Of a stretch of 64,000 bases of DNA, positions 2,205 to 50,880 are shown in pieces. Both the position numbers and the translations under genes were made by a program. The notes below the pieces were generated by a model. It saw only the letters and a program-made list of their open reading frames with translations, was not told the DNA's origin and did no database searches. How positions within the stretch are numbered: position 1 is the first letter of the stretch; every line of letters begins with the position of its first letter. Source of the DNA: Coffea arabica (Eukaryota; Streptophyta; Magnoliopsida; Gentianales; Rubiaceae); NCBI RefSeq assembly GCF_036785885.1, contig NC_092317.1, positions 8,000,501 to 8,064,500 of the forward strand. The letters are read 5' to 3'.

Positions 2205-3074
2205 TTTCGCACTCTGAAACTTTGAAAGAAATGGCTCTTGCCATGCCACAGTGCCGGCCTATAAGTTCTTGTTGTCTGTGAAACTAGAGTTCAGTTTGTA
2301 GAGAAACAACTCTTTCTGAATCTGGAAAGACAATGGAAAATACTTTTGCTTTTTAGTAAGTAACATTTTAGCACTTGATTTTACCCCTTTATAACTTGCA
2401 GTGGTCTTTTTAACTTGCAGATAATGTAACTTCTGCAAAAATGCATTTAGATGTTCTCCTTTATATCTAGAAATCTTCCATTCAAGAAAAGCATTATCAA
2501 ACTGCTATTATTCATGCAGAGCAGTCATTGTGCATATTGTACTGAATGGACAAATCAGGGTTTGGATTGCGGTTTCATGCAAAAAATTTTTACGTTTTTC
2601 GTGAACACATTTTTCAATTATCTTTTTACCTTATATGTATCAAATTATTACAACATATTTTTCTACAAAAACTTCTAAAAATAATAATCCAACCGACAGA
2701 CCTGAACATTCTCTTAGGTGCAATTTGTCTTCTTAGCTTAACAACAGGCTTGTGGAGAATGAAAAGAGAAATTCCAAGATAAAAAGAATTACTAACAGAG
2801 AGGTTATCTGGAAGATTGATCAAATAAAGTAGGTAGAATTTTGTTTACAAAAATGGATTTATACTTCATGTCCCATCTATATTAAGTTTTTTCTTTTTAA
2901 ATTTATTTTTATTTAGAAAAGGAGTGATGGGAAGGGCGCAAAATTAACCTTAGGCCGCGTTAGCGCCTTTCCCCCTCGGCCTCCTTCCCTCTCCATTTTA
3001 AACAGAAAACACAAACCCTAACACACACTCACACACTTCCTCCCGGCCCTCTCGCTCGCTCTCAGACAAATAGA
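2205..3074. other. 3' flank of the dehydrogenase gene, an old MITE relic and the SURF6 promoter/leader
   Basis: Bases 2205-2450 are the probable 3' UTR of the dehydrogenase. Bases 2553-2700 resemble a decayed MITE: a TTTGGATTGC end at about 2561, a degenerate middle, and a converging AATAATCCAA end near 2690. The same end sequences occur in a better-preserved element at about 6306-6482. Bases 2940-3074 are C/T-rich with an AAACCCTAA-type motif (telo-box) near 3013-3021, a promoter element that plant ribosome-biogenesis genes often carry. No coding sequence was seen. Confidence 0.5.
3010..3023 (+). promoter_or_regulatory. Telo-box-like promoter motif
   Basis: The sequence ACAAACCCTAACAC lies about 55 bases before the SURF6 start codon, just ahead of a CT-rich stretch. 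AAACCCTAA (telo-box) is an established element of plant promoters for ribosomal and ribosome-assembly genes; its role here is inferred. Confidence 0.55.
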
Positions 3075-4169
3075 ATGAAGAAGAAGAAGCAGAAGACGAC
3101 CGACTCGTCGGCCGCAGCTCTTATTCCTACACGTTCTACGGCCGATCTCAAAGCCCTAATTCAATCTCACAGCGACTTCTTCGACAGGCTAATCGAACTC
3201 ATCCCAGCAAGATTCTACCTCCCACCTGATGACGACGTTTCTGACAATCCCAAGCCCTACTTCCACGGCCTCTCCAAAGCTGCCAAAGCTTCCCTCAAAC
3301 GCCAATCCAAGCAAAACCTCAAACTTGCCCGCCGCAACCGCCTCGACCCGGACAAAATCTCCCATTCCTCCACCCTCGACCTTCTCAAACAATCCCTGGA
3401 CACCAGTGCCCATGGCGGTGAGGTTGCTGAAATACCCCCGCAAGACGTCCCGAGGGCTATTGATTTAGAGGAGAAGAATGGTGGGGATGGTAATGATGGT
3501 GAAAAGGGTCAAGAAAAGCAGGTTACTTACGAAGAATTGCGTGAGAAATTGAGGAAAAAGATTGAGTTGTTACGCGGGAATCGAGGCGAGGGGAATAGGA
3601 GTGCTAGGAAGGGGAGGGAGGATGATAAGGATAGAGATAATCATAGAGGAGAAAAGAAGAGAAAGAGGGATGGTGAAGGGAGCAGTGGGAAGGGTGTTGA
3701 AGTGGTGGAAAATGACAGTGAAGAGATAATAGAGTATGGGAAAGTGAAGATAGGGGACGATGAGATGGAAGGGAAGAAGAGGAAGAAGAAGAGGAAAATG
3801 TCGAAGGTGAAGGAGTGGGATAGAGCTAAGCGGTTGGAGGAGGTCAAGAAAGAGAATCCCAGGGTAGCAGAGAGGGAATGGTGGAGGGCAGCTGAGAATA
3901 GGGCAATGGGAGTGAAGGTGCATGACGATCCAAGGTTGTTGAGGGAGAGTATGAAGAAGGAGAAGAAGAGGAAGGAAAAAAATGCAGAGAAGTGGAAGGA
4001 GAGGATTGAGGGCCAGGAGAAGGCTAAGGAGGGGAAGCAGCAGAAGAGGAAGGAGAACATTGAAGGGAGGATTAGGGATAAAAAGATGAGGAAGATTGCT
4101 AAAAGGGAGAAGAAGCTCATGAGGCCTGGGTTCGAGGGGCGCAAGGACGAGTACATTACGAAAGATTAA
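3075..4169 (+). CDS. SURF6: SURF6/Rrp14 family ribosome-biogenesis protein
   Basis: This is a single-exon reading frame of 364 residues. Residues about 20-75 (ADLKALIQSHSDFFDRLIEL, ARFYLP) match the Rrp14 N-terminal domain, which in this family precedes the SURF6 domain. Residues about 155-360 form the SURF6 domain: VTYEELREKLRKKIELLRG, then long K/R/E-rich helices ending with KKMRKIAKREKKLMRPGFEG. The extreme basic charge and alternating Lys/Glu are typical of this nucleolar protein, which takes part in 60S (and early 90S) pre-ribosome assembly by binding rRNA. Length is close to plant homologues of about 360-390 residues. The ATG at 3075 follows a C/T-rich leader containing a telo-box-like motif near 3013, in keeping with co-regulation of translation genes. 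The long antisense open frame at 3641-4156 is a by-product of the purine-rich codons. Confidence 0.9.
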   Translation: MKKKKQKTTDSSAAALIPTRSTADLKALIQSHSDFFDRLIELIPARFYLPPDDDVSDNPKPYFHGLSKAAKASLKRQSKQNLKLARRNRLDPDKISHSSTLDLLKQSLDTSAHGGEVAEIPPQDVPRAIDLEEKNGGDGNDGEKGQEKQVTYEELREKLRKKIELLRGNRGEGNRSARKGREDDKDRDNHRGEKKRKRDGEGSSGKGVEVVENDSEEIIEYGKVKIGDDEMEGKKRKKKRKMSKVKEWDRAKRLEEVKKENPRVAEREWWRAAENRAMGVKVHDDPRLLRESMKKEKKRKEKNAEKWKERIEGQEKAKEGKQQKRKENIEGRIRDKKMRKIAKREKKLMRPGFEGRKDEYITKD

Positions 4170-14527: not shown

Positions 14528-14665
14528 AATTGGATTTGAACTATTCCAAGTCGTATTCCAGTTTGGGCGATGGGAATTCCAAGTCATATTACGACTGCTT
14601 GCAAGGGGTTTAAGAATCGCGGGCACAGCAACCAGTCACAGTCAGTAAAACCCTATTCTCCTTCA

Positions 14666-16030
14666 ATGGCGGGAAAGCGAAAAGCGGACGACGAAAACTC
14701 TTCCTCAGAAGATACCTCTTCATCGTCCTCGTCAGAAGAGGAATCTTCATCTCCAGATGGAGATGGAGATGAAGATTCCTCCTCGTCCGGCTCCGAATCG
14801 TCGTCTTCATCCGAAGAAGAAGAAGGAGAAGAGGTTCAAAATAATGGCAATGATTCGTCAAAAAAGCAGAAAGTTGTAAAAATCTCCGATGAAGAAGAAG
14901 AGGTTCAAAATAACGACGACGAATCATCAAAAAAGGAGAAATTAAGGGAACTTTTGGAACCCTTGTCCAAGGATCAGATTTTAGGGTTTTTAAAAGAAGA
15001 GGCCCTAAAGGACCCATCTATTCTCTCTCGGATCGTCGAGAAAGCCGAGTCCGACCCCACCCACACCCACCGCAAAATCTTCATCCACGGCCTCGCCTGG
15101 GATGCCACCGAGGACCAAGTCCTCCAAGTCTTCGAACCTTTCGGAGAAGTTGAGGAGCTCAAGCTAATAACTGATAAGGTTACAGGCCGGGCAAAGGGTT
15201 ACGCTTTTCTCCTCTTCAAAACTCGGGCTGCCGCCAAAAGTGCGCTGAATAATCCTCAGAAGAAAATTGGCAACCGGACTGTCAGTTGCCAGCTCGCGGT
15301 TCTCGGTCCTGCTGCCGGTTCTGCCCCGGCAGGACAGGCTGCCGAGGTTAGTAAGAGGAAGCTCTTTGTGGCTAACGTTGGCCCGAATGTTAATGTGGAG
15401 AGGCTTCGGGCTTTTTTTGGGAAGTTTGGGGAGATTGAGGATGGGCCGTTGGGGTTGGATCCTTCTACGAACAAGCCAAGAGGGTATGCGATTTTCGTGT
15501 ACAAGTCAGTTGATGGGTTGAACAAAGCATTGGAGCAGCCTGCTAAGTTGTTTGAGGGGTCGCAATTGAATTGCAAGAAGTTTGTTGAAGGTTTTAACAA
15601 TAATAATAATAGTAAGAATGGTGGTAGCAAGGGCAGTAATCAACAGCAGAATCAGGGTAGTGGTAATCATGGTTTAGGCATAAATCCAGGCTATTTGGGT
15701 TCTGGTTTGAATGCTGGAGGGATGTTCATGCAGCAGAATCCTGGCATTGGGTTGGTTGGGAATCCAATGCTCGCAGCTGCTTTGAATCAACCAGGCTTGG
15801 CTGTTGCTGCAATGGCTGGGATAGGTGGGAATTTTGGGTTGAATAATTTAAATCCTGGTATGATAGGAAACTATGGACCGCTAGCGGCTTTGCTAGGCCT
15901 AGGGGCTTTACAAGGTGCTGAAACGGGGCAGTCTTCTGTAGGAGCAAATGCAGCTGGAGTAGCGGTAGGGACTGGATCAGCTCAGCCTCAGTCTGATATT
16001 GGATCATCAGGGATGACTTTACCTTCATAG
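14666..16030 (+). CDS. UBA2: UBA2-type RNA-binding protein with two RRMs
   Basis: An uninterrupted frame of 454 residues. Residues 1-95 are acidic and Ser/Glu-rich after a basic start (MAGKRKADDE). Residues about 95-130 (LRELLEPLSKDQILGFLKEE) match the conserved helical segment that precedes the RRMs in UBP1-associated proteins UBA2a/b. RRM1 spans about 136-210, with RNP2 KIFIHGL and RNP1 KGYAFLLF. RRM2 spans about 232-305, with RNP2 KLFVANV and RNP1 RGYAIFVY. Residues 310-454 are a Asn/Gly/Ala-rich low-complexity tail (NNNNSKNGGSKGS, then GLG repeats). The family binds U-rich 3' UTRs in the nucleus, stabilises mRNA, and is linked to ABA and wounding responses in Arabidopsis. An in-frame ATG at 14570 would add 32 residues lacking family character and starts close to the SINE duplication, so 14666 is preferred. 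Absence of coding introns agrees with UBA2 genes. Confidence 0.85.
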   Translation: MAGKRKADDENSSSEDTSSSSSSEEESSSPDGDGDEDSSSSGSESSSSSEEEEGEEVQNNGNDSSKKQKVVKISDEEEEVQNNDDESSKKEKLRELLEPLSKDQILGFLKEEALKDPSILSRIVEKAESDPTHTHRKIFIHGLAWDATEDQVLQVFEPFGEVEELKLITDKVTGRAKGYAFLLFKTRAAAKSALNNPQKKIGNRTVSCQLAVLGPAAGSAPAGQAAEVSKRKLFVANVGPNVNVERLRAFFGKFGEIEDGPLGLDPSTNKPRGYAIFVYKSVDGLNKALEQPAKLFEGSQLNCKKFVEGFNNNNNSKNGGSKGSNQQQNQGSGNHGLGINPGYLGSGLNAGGMFMQQNPGIGLVGNPMLAAALNQPGLAVAAMAGIGGNFGLNNLNPGMIGNYGPLAALLGLGALQGAETGQSSVGANAAGVAVGTGSAQPQSDIGSSGMTLPS

Positions 16031-30733: not shown

Positions 30734-33700
30734 AATGACCAGTAAAAGGTCAGTATTTGGGAAATAACCTAAAGAGTGTCATGTATTACTCAAGTTACAA
30801 GTTCCAATGTATAATGTACAACTCCTTGGTGCAGTATTTGATTTGGTCAATGACAATTTTTTTCTTGGGATGCTGGAAAAGGCGCATTATTTTATCACTT
30901 GCTTGTGTTATGCTTAATGAATTTCATTTTTGCTCTTATATCAATAATTTTTTTATTTGGGATGTGTAGATTGGGCAAGGTACTTACAGCAATGTATACA
31001 AAGCAAAGGACTTGATAACAGGGAAGATAGTGGCATTAAAGAAGGTCAGGTTTGATAACTTGGAGCCGGAGAGTTTGAAGTTCATGGCAAGAGAAATTCT
31101 TGTGTTGAGTAAGTTGGATCATCCCAATGTCATAAAGCTTGAAGGGCTGGTCACTTCAAGAATGTCATCTAGTCTTTACTTAGTTTTTGAGTACATGGAG
31201 CATGATCTTGCTGGGCTTTCGGCGGGCCAAGAGATCAAGTTCACTGAGCCCCAGGTAATATTCAACAGAAGATTTGTTTTCCTGGTTAAATGATTTTTAC
31301 GATAATTACAGCTGTCAAAGTGTTGTAGATTAGTGCTGTTATTTTGAAACTTCTAAGATTTTAATAATAGTTTGATTCGCATTTTGGTAGTTTTTATTCC
31401 CTTGACTACCCTTTCTTAGTTTGCAAGTGGCCAGAGCTGTGATTTTGCACTTCTATTTAAGGACTGTGGCCAAGATATTCTGATAATGCATCTGTCTTTT
31501 AGTTTTGATTCTTCTGCTTTCTGAGGTTGCAATGGGACATTAACTAAACTGTCGGGTCCATGCCTGCTACTCCTTTGGGTATCCAATGCTGTGGCTTTTT
31601 CCGGTTGTGATGATTGGGTCTATTGATGTTCTCTAATGGTGAAGAATTCACAGTTTTGGGTCCATGAAGTTAAAAAGCTCAATTGGGTGTCTGCTTACTC
31701 AGACCATTTTAATCACTCTTAGGGGGAAAATTTTGACTGTTAAGTTATAGGTATGGTATCTGTACTAACATATTTCTAGCCAATAATGCCTGTCAACAGT
31801 GTCTTAGGATATGAGATTCTTATCTGAACTTAAGTTGCAGTTTTAATACGTTTTTACATGCTTAGTTCCTATGGGTTTTATTTTATTTTATTTCAATTTA
31901 TCTTATGTTTTTGGCATGTCATAGTGTAAAGTACCTACTGCTTTGGATAACTTCAGCACTTGATTTGGTTAAACGTTTGTTTACTTTGCCTTCTTTTTTT
32001 TTTAATAATCTTGTATACCAAAAAATTAATTCAAATATGTAGGATTTATTCACTGCATGCAAATATTGGTATGCTTGTAAATTTGTGCAAACAAAATAAC
32101 TCGCTTCTGCAAATCATGTTACAATAATGGTTCAGGTCTACTCAATCCAACAGGGCTTTTTCCTCAACGCTAGAGTTATTCTTTTATGGAAATTGTTAGT
32201 TTAAGTGTGTCAGATTCTCCTTGCACGAATTCTAATCCTTTGGCCCTTTTAGATTATCTCTATGCCACAGATTTTTCTTCTCTTCATGTTGAACATGAGA
32301 AATTAATCTTCCAATGCACTTCTTATTGCAGGTGAAGTGCTATATGCATCAGCTGCTTTCTGGCCTTGAACATTGCCACAATAATGGTGTGCTACACCGA
32401 GATATCAAATGCTCCAATTTACTCATTGACAATGAAGGAAATTTAAAAATTGCTGATTTTGGCTTAGCTTCTTTTTATGATCCTGAACAGAAGCAGCCCA
32501 TGACTAGTCGTGTTGTGACCCTCTGGTACCGGCCACCAGAACTTCTCCTTGGGGCCACTTCTTATGGTGTCGGAGTTGATCTGTGGAGTGCTGGCTGCAT
32601 TTTAGCTGAATTACTTGCTGGGAAGCCAATAATGCCAGGAAGAACAGAGGTATCTTTTTTCTTCTCAGTAATGTCCTTTTGCTTCGTTGATGAAGCCATT
32701 CCATTGCCTCTAATGCTTCTGGTGGGGTTAGTTTGATTGATCGCAAGTCACTTGATAGCATTCTTAGTCCAGCATCCTCTTTGCTTATTTTTCCTTTACA
32801 CATTGTATTTACATCAGATAGGGGGAACTTTTGCAGCTATTCATCGCTGAATAATATTAAGGGGGATTACAACAATAACTGAGATTCTTGCTCATTTATG
32901 TGAAGCTTTATATACTTGTATTCTTCCTCAATTCAAGACAAGCCCTGATTGTTTTTTGTTTTCAAGGGGTTTGGCCTGGAGGATTATTACTTTTTCCTTT
33001 CTTGGCAACTGTGAATAGAAATCTTTCTCTTTGAGAAGCTAGTCTTCTAGTATTATTTTGTATCAGTGTTCTAACACCTGATGACTGATTTAAAAGATGT
33101 TATGCTTAGTCTATGAATCCTTGTGCATGGATATCTCATCTTTTGTTTATGCAGTCAATGAGCTAAATGTGGCATTTTTGTTCATGTTAGGGATTAAGCT
33201 GAAAGTATATTAATACAGCATAATTTTATGTGTTATATCAACATCAAATCTAGTATTTTTCCCAGAATCTGTTTCATATTTGTCGGAGAAAGAAAATTGG
33301 ACGGGAGAGAAAATTATTCAGTTACTGTTGATTTCACTTCTAATCAATTCATTGTTGAGCATAATACGGTTATCTGCTTTGTGCTTTTAAGCCTTTTTTG
33401 TACCGGATGCAAGGCCATTTGATAATTTAGACTTTTTGCTGTTAGGTTGAGCAACTCCACAAGATATTCAAGTTGTGTGGTTCTCCGTCGGAGGAGTATT
33501 GGAAGAAATCCAGGTTGCCAAATGCTACTCTTTTTAAACCACAGCAACCTTATAAGCGCTGCATATCAGAAACCTTCAAGGATTTTCCACCCTCTTCTCT
33601 CCCCTTGATTGAAACACTTCTTGCTATCGACCCCAAAGATCGAGGCACTGCTACAGCTGCTTTAAATAGTAATGTAAGTATTGCATAACTGTGCAAATTT

Positions 33701-48006: not shown

Positions 48007-48095
48007 CTGTTTTTGGGCTAATTTCTTAGATTATATGTTAAAAAAAAAATAATCCGCCAAATGTACCTCTAACGGGGGGTGTTTCTCATTCTATA

Positions 48096-48280
48096 GCGGC
48101 CGTGCTGACTGGGCACATCCGCATAATTAAAAATTCCACCAGCAACCTGTCTGCAAAAAATTCTGCAAAAAATTCAGGGGAGCAGCAGGTGTCAGAGCGG
48201 ACGTGCTGACTGGGCACGTCCGCGGCTGACTTCGGACAGAGCATGTGTCAGACGCGGACGTGCTGACTGCGCACGTCCGT
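48096..48280 (+). repeat. Three 27-bp palindromes in the left TIR
   Basis: Copies lie at 48096-48122, 48197-48223 and 48254-48280. Each has arms GCGGACGTGC and GCACGTCCGC around a 7-base TGACTGG or TGACTGC loop; the first has C for A in the left arm and A for G in the right. Regular subterminal palindromes suggest protein-binding sites or hairpins. Confidence 0.85.
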
Positions 48281-48529
48281 GGCTGACCAAATTACATCCG
48301 GTCTTTGCTTCTGATGTTTCTGCTGTGAAATCCTTAATTTATTGTACTCCCATAACGAACTTAATTTGTGCCTAAATAAGCCAAACATTTTAACAGTGAG
48401 TAAAAAAAGGCAGGGTCTGATTTGACTGATTTTAATCCTACACCAATCTGCTTTTTGCCAAACTAAGTGGAGCACCATTAGGAAGGATAAACATTAGCAG
48501 CAAAGTTCTCTTGAACTGAAAAAGTTTGG

Positions 48530-50120
48530 GGTTCGTTTGAATTAGCTGTTTTTGAGATTATTTTTAAAAAACAACACTGTAGCATTTCGTTTTTCAAATA
48601 CAAGTCCATTTGGATTAGTTGTTTTTGGGGTTGTTTTTAAAAAACTATATGAAAAACTTTTACTGTAGATGTTTTATGGATTACTTTTAGAATAACATAT
48701 TTTTGATTATTTTTATAATTTATAATTTTTATATTTTTATAACAATATACATTTATACATTTATAATACATTTATAAATATTTATAAATAAATATATTTA
48801 TATAAAAATATATAAATGTATTATACTATATATAATACATAATATAAATATATTTATAAATGTATAAATGTATATTATTATAAATGTATAAATGTATAAA
48901 TGAATATTATACAAATTATAAATTATAAATTATAAATTATAAATTTTATATTTTTATATGTATATACATTTATGCATTTATAATGCATTTATAAATAAAT
49001 ATATTTATATATTTATATATAAATATATAAATTTATTATAAATGTATGATATTATATATAATACATAATATAAATATATTTATAAATTTATAAATGTATA
49101 TTATTATAAATGTATAAATTATAAATGAATATTATATAAATGTATATTATAATTTTTATATTTTATATTTACATACATTATCCATTTGTAATACATTTAT
49201 AAATAAATAAATTTATATATTTATATAAAAATATATAAATGTATTATATTATATATAATACATAATATAAATATATTTATAAATGTATAAATTGAAAATG
49301 TATATTATATAAATGTATATTATAATTTATAATTTTTATATTTTTATATTTATATACATTTATGCATTTATAATAAATTTATAAATATTTATAAATAAAT
49401 ATATAAATGTATTATATTATATATAATACATAATATAAATATATTTATAAATGTATAAATGTATATTATTATAAATGTGTATAAATTATAAATGAATATT
49501 ATAGAAATGTATAAATTAATATATTATAAATATATATTAATATTTTGTATAAATGTATTAATATAATAAATATAAATGTATAAATGTATTAATATTATGT
49601 ATAAATGTATAATTAATATTATGTATATTAATATAAATATATAAATGTATTATATTATATATAATACATAATATAAATGTATATTATAAATATACATAAA
49701 TATATATTATGTATAAATGTACATTTATATAAATGTATAATATATATATAATATATATTATGTATATATTAAATATATAATATATAATATTTATATAAAT
49801 GTATAATTACATATTTATATTATATATGATTTATATAATATATGATATTTATATAAATATATAAAAATGTATTTTATTTAAAATAAAATATTTATAATAT
49901 GTATAAATAAATATATTTAAATTAATATAATATATATATCCTATACATATTTGAAATATACAAATTGAAATAAACATATTAAATATATATTTGGAGTTAT
50001 TTTTCATATATTGTTTGAATATGGTGTTTTTGGAGTTGTTTTTGAAATACACATTTACTGTAGCATTTGGAATGTGAAAAACAGTTTTTCAACAACAGAC
50101 CCAAAAAAAGGAATCCAAAT
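48530..50120. mobile_element. Nested AT-rich element with minisatellite core
   Basis: The left boundary has GGGTTCGTTTGAATTAGCTG with a second similar end (GTCCATTTGGATTAGTTG) 65 bases inside. The right boundary, read in reverse complement, is GGGTCCATTTGGATTCC. Both sides share TTACTGTAGCATTT-like and GGAGTTGTTTTTGAAA-like subterminal blocks. The core (about 48700-49990) is over 90% A/T and contains at least five spaced copies of a TATAATACATAATATAAAT module at about 48831, 49058, 49255, 49423 and 49660, i.e. an irregular tandem repeat of 170-240 bases. Confidence 0.6.
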
Positions 50121-50618
50121 GGACCCTTGGTCTTTGGGATTATTTCTTCTTTTGTATAAATGAGTTCTTTTCTTATTTGTTTATTTTGCATGTAGTTCTT
50201 CATTGATTCTAAAGCTAAGCAAAAATTAGCTTCTGCCCACAAGAAGCCCTGTATTATAAGCGTTACATGACAATTTCTTTAAAGAGTCTTGCTCTTAATA
50301 AAGTTAAATTCCTCTAATAAAATTCTTCGTCCCCCCTCCCCCCAAAATTTTTGGCTAGTGATTCTTCAATTTAATTTTTTCTTTTAAAACTACACCAGGT
50401 TGCTTTCTCCCCAGATACAGGAAACAAGTTTTTTTTTTTTTTTAAATGTGGATCAAAGTCTCCTGTACTAAAAAAGTATAAATTCTTGGATTGAATGGGT
50501 TCTGCATAAACTTTTGCTTTTTCTTTTTGGCGTGAAGCTGTGTTAAGCCAAGATATAACTCATATTTGAGACTGACACATATTTGTGTCTGTGTCAGCCG
50601 GATGTAATTTGGTCAGAC

Positions 50619-50791
50619 ACGGACGTGCTGACTGCGCACGTCCGCGTCTGACACATGCTCTGTCCGAAGTCAGCCGCGGACGTGCCCAGTCAGCACGTCC
50701 GCTCTGACACCTGCTGCTCCCCTGAATTTTTTGCAGACAGGTTGCTGGTGAAATTTTTAATTATGCGGACGTGTCCAGTCAGCACGGCCGC
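50619..50791 (-). repeat. Three 27-bp palindromes in the right TIR
   Basis: Counterparts lie at 50619-50645, 50676-50702 and 50765-50791. They mirror the left-arm set, with the loop reading CCAGTCA in the two outer ones; the innermost copy keeps TGACTGC and has an A for G at its first base. Confidence 0.85.
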
Positions 50792-50880
50792 TATAAAATG
50801 AGAAACACCCCCTGTCAGAGGTACATTTGGCGGATTGTTTTTTTTTTAACATATAATCTAAGAAATTAGCCCTGTTTTTG

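Follow-up and report, generated by a model that had tools for sequence, protein, structure and literature searches.

Palindromic unit arrays with inverting loops in the terminal repeats of a Coffea arabica Mutator-like element family

Why would a DNA transposon carry the same 27-bp palindrome three times in each of its terminal inverted repeats (TIRs), at regular distances from its ends? This question is raised by an element in a 64,000-nt stretch of the Coffea arabica genome (positions 8,000,501 to 8,064,500 of NC_092317.1). The whole stretch is called the window here, and positions are counted from its first base. In our best reading, the feature is a Mutator-like element (MULE) with composite, foldback-like TIRs, in which the array of palindromes and the flipping of their loops appear to be new. 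Host genes elsewhere in the window encode a SURF6/RRP14-like ribosome biogenesis protein (3075-4169) and an RNA-binding protein with two RRM stretches (14570-16030), and a protein kinase exon lies at 32314-32736.

The element and its family

Read directly from the sequence, the locus has the following parts, the palindromic units being assigned to slots numbered inwards from either end:

48016..50871, no strand assigned: non-autonomous MULE, 2856 bp
48007..48015, plus strand: left 9-bp target duplication, CTGTTTTTG
50872..50880, plus strand: right 9-bp target duplication, CTGTTTTTG
48016..48301, plus strand: left TIR, 286 nt
50598..50871, minus strand: right TIR, 274 nt
48096..48122, plus strand: palindrome in slot 1 of the left arm; stem with two mismatches, TGACTGG as loop
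48151..48174, plus strand: 12-bp tandem duplication, two copies of CTGCAAAAAATT, single in the right arm
48197..48223, plus strand: palindrome in slot 2 of the left arm; 10-bp stem without mismatch, TGACTGG as loop
48254..48280, plus strand: palindrome in slot 3 of the left arm; stem with one mismatch, TGACTGC as loop
50619..50645, minus strand: palindrome in slot 3 of the right arm; its loop is inverted and reads GCAGTCA in TIR orientation
50676..50702, minus strand: palindrome in slot 2 of the right arm; 10-bp stem without mismatch, TGACTGG as loop when read in TIR orientation
50765..50791, minus strand: palindrome in slot 1 of the right arm; stem with two mismatches, TGACTGG as loop when read in TIR orientation
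48529..50126, no strand assigned: AT-rich insertion of 1598 bp, nested in the element between TTG at 48526-48528 and TTG at 50127-50129
48302-48525 and 50130-50597: the internal stretches besides the TIRs and the nested insertion

Both ends of the element read GGCTAATTTCTT and its arms are about 95% alike, the difference in their lengths being due to the 12-bp tandem duplication on the left. A preliminary description of the locus had given these limits, TIRs of about 280 bp, an exact 9-bp duplication and a Mutator-like identity, all of which are borne out: the duplication is within the 9-11 bp of MULEs, the TIRs are within their range of about 100-500 bp, and parts of a MURA-type transposase, of which the window copy itself has none, are encoded by a relative with the same termini, L031. 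The TIRs are also built from repeated internal units, as in Foldback-type elements, and these units stand at regular places between unrelated spacers, unlike simple tandem repeats. The element does not belong with the tandem-TIR MULEs, in which all or nearly all of the TIR is duplicated, as the window copy has one TIR per side.

The nested insertion, which makes up 1598 bp of the element and had gone unnoticed before, has 6% GC across 49001-50000. Its ends are of the form GGGTYC: one side starts with GGGTTCGTTTGAATT, and the other, on the opposite strand read inward, with GGGTCCATTTGGATT. A 1249-bp copy, L009, has the empty site AAGTTTGGTC, and its interior around that site is 97.5-97.8% identical to the window copy; the empty site fits a duplication of TTG, with TTGG as the alternative. 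Another copy, L010, has the same insertion at the corresponding place and yet a different 9-bp duplication, for which reason element and insertion have most likely transposed together since the compound was made.

The arms are not confined to the window. In the genome to which the window belongs (1.198 Gb in 131 contigs), the left arm has at least 61 matches (40 of 302 candidates scored). A first set of 27 fetched stretches plus the window yielded 25 elements with both ends, besides three unpaired arms (L012, L013 and L028). In 25 of 25, both ends start with GGCTAATT, and 21 have exact 9-bp duplications; the exceptions are L017 and L029 (one mismatch each), L016 (a shifted imperfect match) and L011 (none). 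The pattern GGACGTGC-N7-GCACGTCC occurs at 177 sites in the genome and the reversed control pattern at none, and a chance origin of the palindromes was dismissed on this count. Exact matches to the core pattern were absent from the IMG/VR viral contigs and the GTDB genomes, collections that are not meant for plants. Among the pattern matches listed, 16 new loci formed a second set, all 16 of which have a family end by BLAST; in the 12 with both ends, the 9-bp duplication is exact in six, has one mismatch in three and was not found in three. As these loci were selected by a perfect inner unit, they are uninformative on how common such units are, and the selection is neutral to loop orientation. 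L012 (contig C2) and L013 (contig C1) have arms without a single difference in the part that went into tree building, and neither has an opposite end within the fetched stretch.

The transposase-bearing copy, L031, is 8312 bp long with an exact target duplication. Two open frames on its minus strand match DBD_Tnp_Mut (PF03108), MULE (PF10551) and SWIM (PF04434), so that there is a copy with parts of a MURA-like transposase, the kind of partner that the preliminary description had proposed to look for; the reading frames suggest that the parts are exons separated by introns. L031 belongs to another subfamily, about 75% identical to the window copy in the arms. A MURA-type transposase, like the one partly encoded by L031, probably mobilized the window copy in trans.

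Parts of the family have moved recently, since L026, which resembles L031 minus its middle, has 99.93% identity with it across 1521 bp, and L024 and L025 have interiors that are 99.8% identical and different duplications. Left-right arm identity is 0.982 in L035, 0.973 in L027, 0.961 in L018 and 0.957 in L031. By arm likeness, the window copy is not among the youngest. The recent activity at which the preliminary description had hinted is thus shown for other copies, such as L026 and L031, and not for the window copy, whose arms are about 95% alike and whose insertion is common to L010.

Place and conservation of the palindromic units

Each arm of the window copy has three units of 27 nt, built as stem(10)-loop(7)-stem(10). 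Counted from the left end, they start at bases 81, 182 and 239; counted from the right end, at 81, 170 and 227. These units had been described as palindromes placed alike in both arms. They are present, and only the middle pair has perfect stems, slot 1 having two mismatches per arm and slot 3 one. Nor is the left-right match complete, because the two arms have the loop of the innermost unit in opposite orientations: in TIR orientation, slot 3 reads GCGGACGTGC-TGACTGC-GCACGTCCGT on the left and GCGGACGTGC-GCAGTCA-GCACGTCCGT on the right.

Units recur throughout the family, so the palindromes are conserved between its members. The first set has 139 units in 25 elements, with units in 48 of 50 arms. 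Both sets together have 208 units in 81 arms, at least one in 77 arms and none in four; palindrome number varies, two to four being detected in 68 of the 81. Of the 63 arms with a slot-1 unit, 55 have its first base at 80-82, and slot 2 starts near 170 in many arms; in the arms of L031, the units start at 81, 169/171 and 236/237. Adjacent inner spacings are 65-67 bp in 48 of 71 cases, and the 57-bp spacing of the window copy occurs seven times. Because a joint alignment of 53 arms was gappy (658 columns), the slots were compared unit by unit. In an ungapped comparison confined to the 48 pairs spaced 65-67 bp apart, mean unit identity is 0.92 in the best orientation, against 0.48 for the 36 bases that precede the units and 0.30 for the 36 that follow (47 scored). 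Function is argued for mainly by this contrast: the units kept their sequence and place while the spacers diverged.

These values bear on the view that the palindromes have no function and are mutational by-products, made and maintained by template switching and spread by amplification of the element. According to the available text of PMC8794818, template switching suffices to create and maintain stems. In the Coffea family, the free inversion of the loops and the variable number of units also speak for this view. We nevertheless regard this view as unlikely: spacers that are 0.30-0.48 identical in the 65-67-bp pairs surround units that keep both sequence and spacing, and slot 1 has kept its place in most arms.

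The units might alternatively act as RNA: transcripts of the TIRs would form hairpins there and so supply small-RNA silencing. Small interfering RNAs have been associated with long MULE TIRs (PMC6446971, in the part available). However, two TIRs of such length are able to pair in RNA even without the units, an RNA role would have no need of a 65-67 bp spacing, and zero Rfam families reach the gathering score in the whole window, so that a role of this kind seems very improbable.

Stem pairing and loop inversion

Two features that the preliminary description did not contain, stem covariation and loop inversion, bear most on the mechanism. Located by the inner core alone (CGTGC-N7-GCACG, one mismatch allowed), 206 units were found in the 81 arms. 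All 206 have a TGACT-like loop in either orientation (at most two of five mismatches), the loop not having been a search criterion. Only 93 have a perfect 10-bp stem; the recurring perfect types are GCGGACGTGC (40 units), GGGGACGTGC (27), GCGGCCGTGC (14) and CGGGACGTGC (10). Among 170 distinct units, stem positions 5, 3, 2, 1, 0, -3 and -6 pair more often than in any of 500 shuffles, and positions 4, -1, -2, -4 and -5 do not. It should be noted that this covariation is based on few events, because the shuffles ignore kinship and outer stem types change only about three to four times per slot on the tree.

The ACGT cores in the stems and the TGASTCA in the slot-1 loop resemble bZIP sites. The units could accordingly be host transcription-factor sites that make the TIR a promoter, with bZIP-like proteins as candidates, and the conserved cores GGACGTGC and TGASTCA agree with this. 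MULE TIRs do contain promoters besides transposase sites (PMC3310237, available text). We give this explanation little credence, given that in most arms the slot-1 stems are GGCCGTGC, which has no ACGT core and is still palindromic where compensated, and that units are present in both arms of gene-less copies.

The loops of this MULE family flip repeatedly, as judged from the sequences compared, which is a new point of the analysis. Exactly inverted loops were found in six of 62 matched left/right unit pairs, and five more pairs are closer to inversion than to identity. Five of the six are slot-1 pairs whose loops are one base apart (L014, L015, L029, L030 and L039), and the sixth is slot 3 of the window copy, whose loops differ at five of seven bases. 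Between copies, L016 and L021, with interiors that are 95% alike, have the loops TGACTGT and ACAGTCA. A loop turned in place within a kept stem, the mark of a hairpin-borne small inversion, is what these six of 62 pairs, window slot 3 among them, display. In window slot 3 the G/T stem mismatch common to both arms remained when the loop flipped; this event thus left the stem as a whole un-rematched.

Flips were also counted on maximum-likelihood trees. On a first tree of 43 arms, built without the scored unit and with the slot-1 loop scored in 34, the loop centre (TGACTCA/TGAGTCA) changed at least nine times, eight for C and G alone, while C-G changes numbered at most two in 142 other columns and none in 123 of them. 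A larger tree has 63 arms, 46 of them scored; the other 17 have other slot-1 loops, and another 18 arms of the 81, in which slot 1 has no unit, were left out. Here, the centre changed at least 13 times, at least 11 for C-G changes alone, against a maximum of three C-G changes in 142 other columns and none in 110. When all kinds of change are counted, other columns reach up to eight changes (43 arms) or, in two columns, ten (63 arms, with 13 at the slot-1 centre), and therefore only the C-G kind stands out at this centre. By position bins, in which slot identity is less sure, loop orientation changed at least four times in slot 2, five in slot 3 and three in slot 4. All tree counts of flips are rough, because many forks and the backbone are weakly supported.

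Point mutation as the source of the loop differences was dismissed, as whole 7-nt loops are reverse-complementary (window slot 3; L016 versus L021), and it is also contradicted by the C-G rate at the slot-1 centre, several times that of any other column.

Loops could also flip by exchange or conversion between units, of the left and right arm or of different slots, the palindromes pairing either way. Near-identical units in both orientations within one element speak for such an exchange. The flipped loops, however, retain their slot's own last base (TGACTGC/GCAGTCA in the window; TGACTGT in L016 versus ACAGTCA in L021), which excludes exchange between unlike slots and is still compatible with exchange between the same slots of the two arms. 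We hold exchange to be possible and on the whole rather doubtful.

Proposed mechanism and known systems

On sequence grounds, we favor, with some reserve, the reading that the units are candidate transposase-docking arrays in hairpin-forming DNA, in which template switching would invert the loops and re-match the stems. The transposase, or a host protein used by it, would dock at the 27-bp dyad sites, and docking there would help to bring the two ends of the element together for cutting. The inner core CGTGC-TGACT-GCACG would be kept by selection, as its conservation against the diverged spacers suggests. The unit may fold as a hairpin or cruciform in replication or repair, whereupon synthesis could jump template between the stem halves, copying one half onto the other and reversing the loop in place. 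As single-stranded DNA, the left arm of the window copy does fold well (z = -5.7 against dinucleotide shuffles), and that of L031 still better (z = -12.0). Template switching of this kind would keep the outer stem self-complementary and leave the loop free to turn; the footprints are present in the units, and the process is what we infer from them. Compensatory stem changes and inverted loops are the footprints expected of template switching in RNA genes according to the available text of PMC8794818, where loop inversions are rare and a stem change joined with a loop inversion is very rare in rRNA. Template switching leaves the kept core and spacing unexplained, and a bound protein is therefore indicated; the transposase is its first candidate because the units are in both ends, also in copies without a transposase gene.

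A variant, which we consider decidedly unlikely, is that the transposase or a host helper reads extruded, loop-out hairpins, so that end recognition would be partly structural and the flips would be the footprint of the hairpins. This would fit a TGACT loop that is conserved but orientation-free and an outer stem free to covary, and the flips would record hairpin formation in cycles of transposition or repair.

Known systems were compared through the available parts of the papers cited. Repeated short motifs in MULE TIRs have been reported before, in Muta1 (PMC5225508), in Tm1 (PMC3169594) and as a general remark (PMC3310237). Muta1, an active MULE of Aedes aegypti classed by its authors among the type 2 foldback elements, shares with the Coffea family an 8-9 bp target duplication, TIRs of more than 100 bp and a repeated subterminal motif, with a repeat number that is variable in its derivatives (PMC5225508). 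It differs in its repeat, which is 12 bp long, occurs nine times and is separated by linkers of 3-4 bp, and in an imperfect palindrome of 10 bp located at the extreme end, whereas the Coffea family has 27-bp palindromes from 80 bp inside, about 66 bp apart; loop inversion is not mentioned in the available part of PMC5225508. The Tm1 Mutator/Foldback elements of root-knot nematodes are alike in their 9-bp duplication, composite internally repeated TIRs and a transposase-bearing relative, but their redundant motifs are of about 14 bp rather than long palindromes and their transposase is of the Phantom type (PMC3169594).

In plants, the multiple-long-TIR MULEs of Ferguson and Jiang (PMC3310237) also have repetition within their ends; they duplicate whole TIRs, whereas the Coffea family repeats a 27-bp unit inside one TIR. 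MuTAnT and the FARE-type plant foldback MULEs (PMC4486113; FARE as cited there) likewise have modular long TIRs prone to hairpins, but there the TIR pair forms the hairpin, and in the Coffea family several small hairpins would form per TIR. A loop flipping repeatedly between fixed stem halves is known from the small inversions of plastids, with five to seven state changes at six hairpin-loop sites among 20 plastomes (PMC6824564). Those are mostly in spacer DNA, and the Coffea loops are nuclear and lie within a conserved transposon unit. The short interrupted repeat cassettes (SIRC) of Arabidopsis resemble the units in being short direct repeats with unrelated spacers whose repeat sequences occur in DNA/MuDR elements; they differ in that palindrome arms are 4-9 bp in 211 of them and shorter or absent in most, and the available text does not describe them as TIR sites at set distances from an end (PMC10342631). 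In the open-licence literature searched, as far as its available text goes, we found no account of arrays of palindromic units with inverting loops in a MULE. Since each inversion stays legible in its copy and can be read against that copy's close relatives, the family may offer a natural tally of how often hairpins arise in the nuclear DNA of plants.

To our knowledge, little is known about what a MULE transposase recognizes in a long TIR beyond the motif bound by MURA in maize. That motif is roughly 32 bp long (PMC3310237, available part). In the Coffea family, evolution itself has marked the candidate sites, which are short, at set distances and constant amid changing surroundings, and L031, the transposase-bearing relative, is at hand for tests.

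Two further features of L031 were observed. At 2647-3126 on its plus strand, opposite to the transposase, there is a 159-aa open frame with a GRF-type zinc ribbon below the cut-off (24.9 versus 25.9 bits), possibly a second gene of this copy. A different, AT-richer palindrome with 16-nt arms and an AAAA loop lies at 593-628 of L031 and at matching places in L026 and L035, where it occupies a fourth position in the arms of this subfamily.
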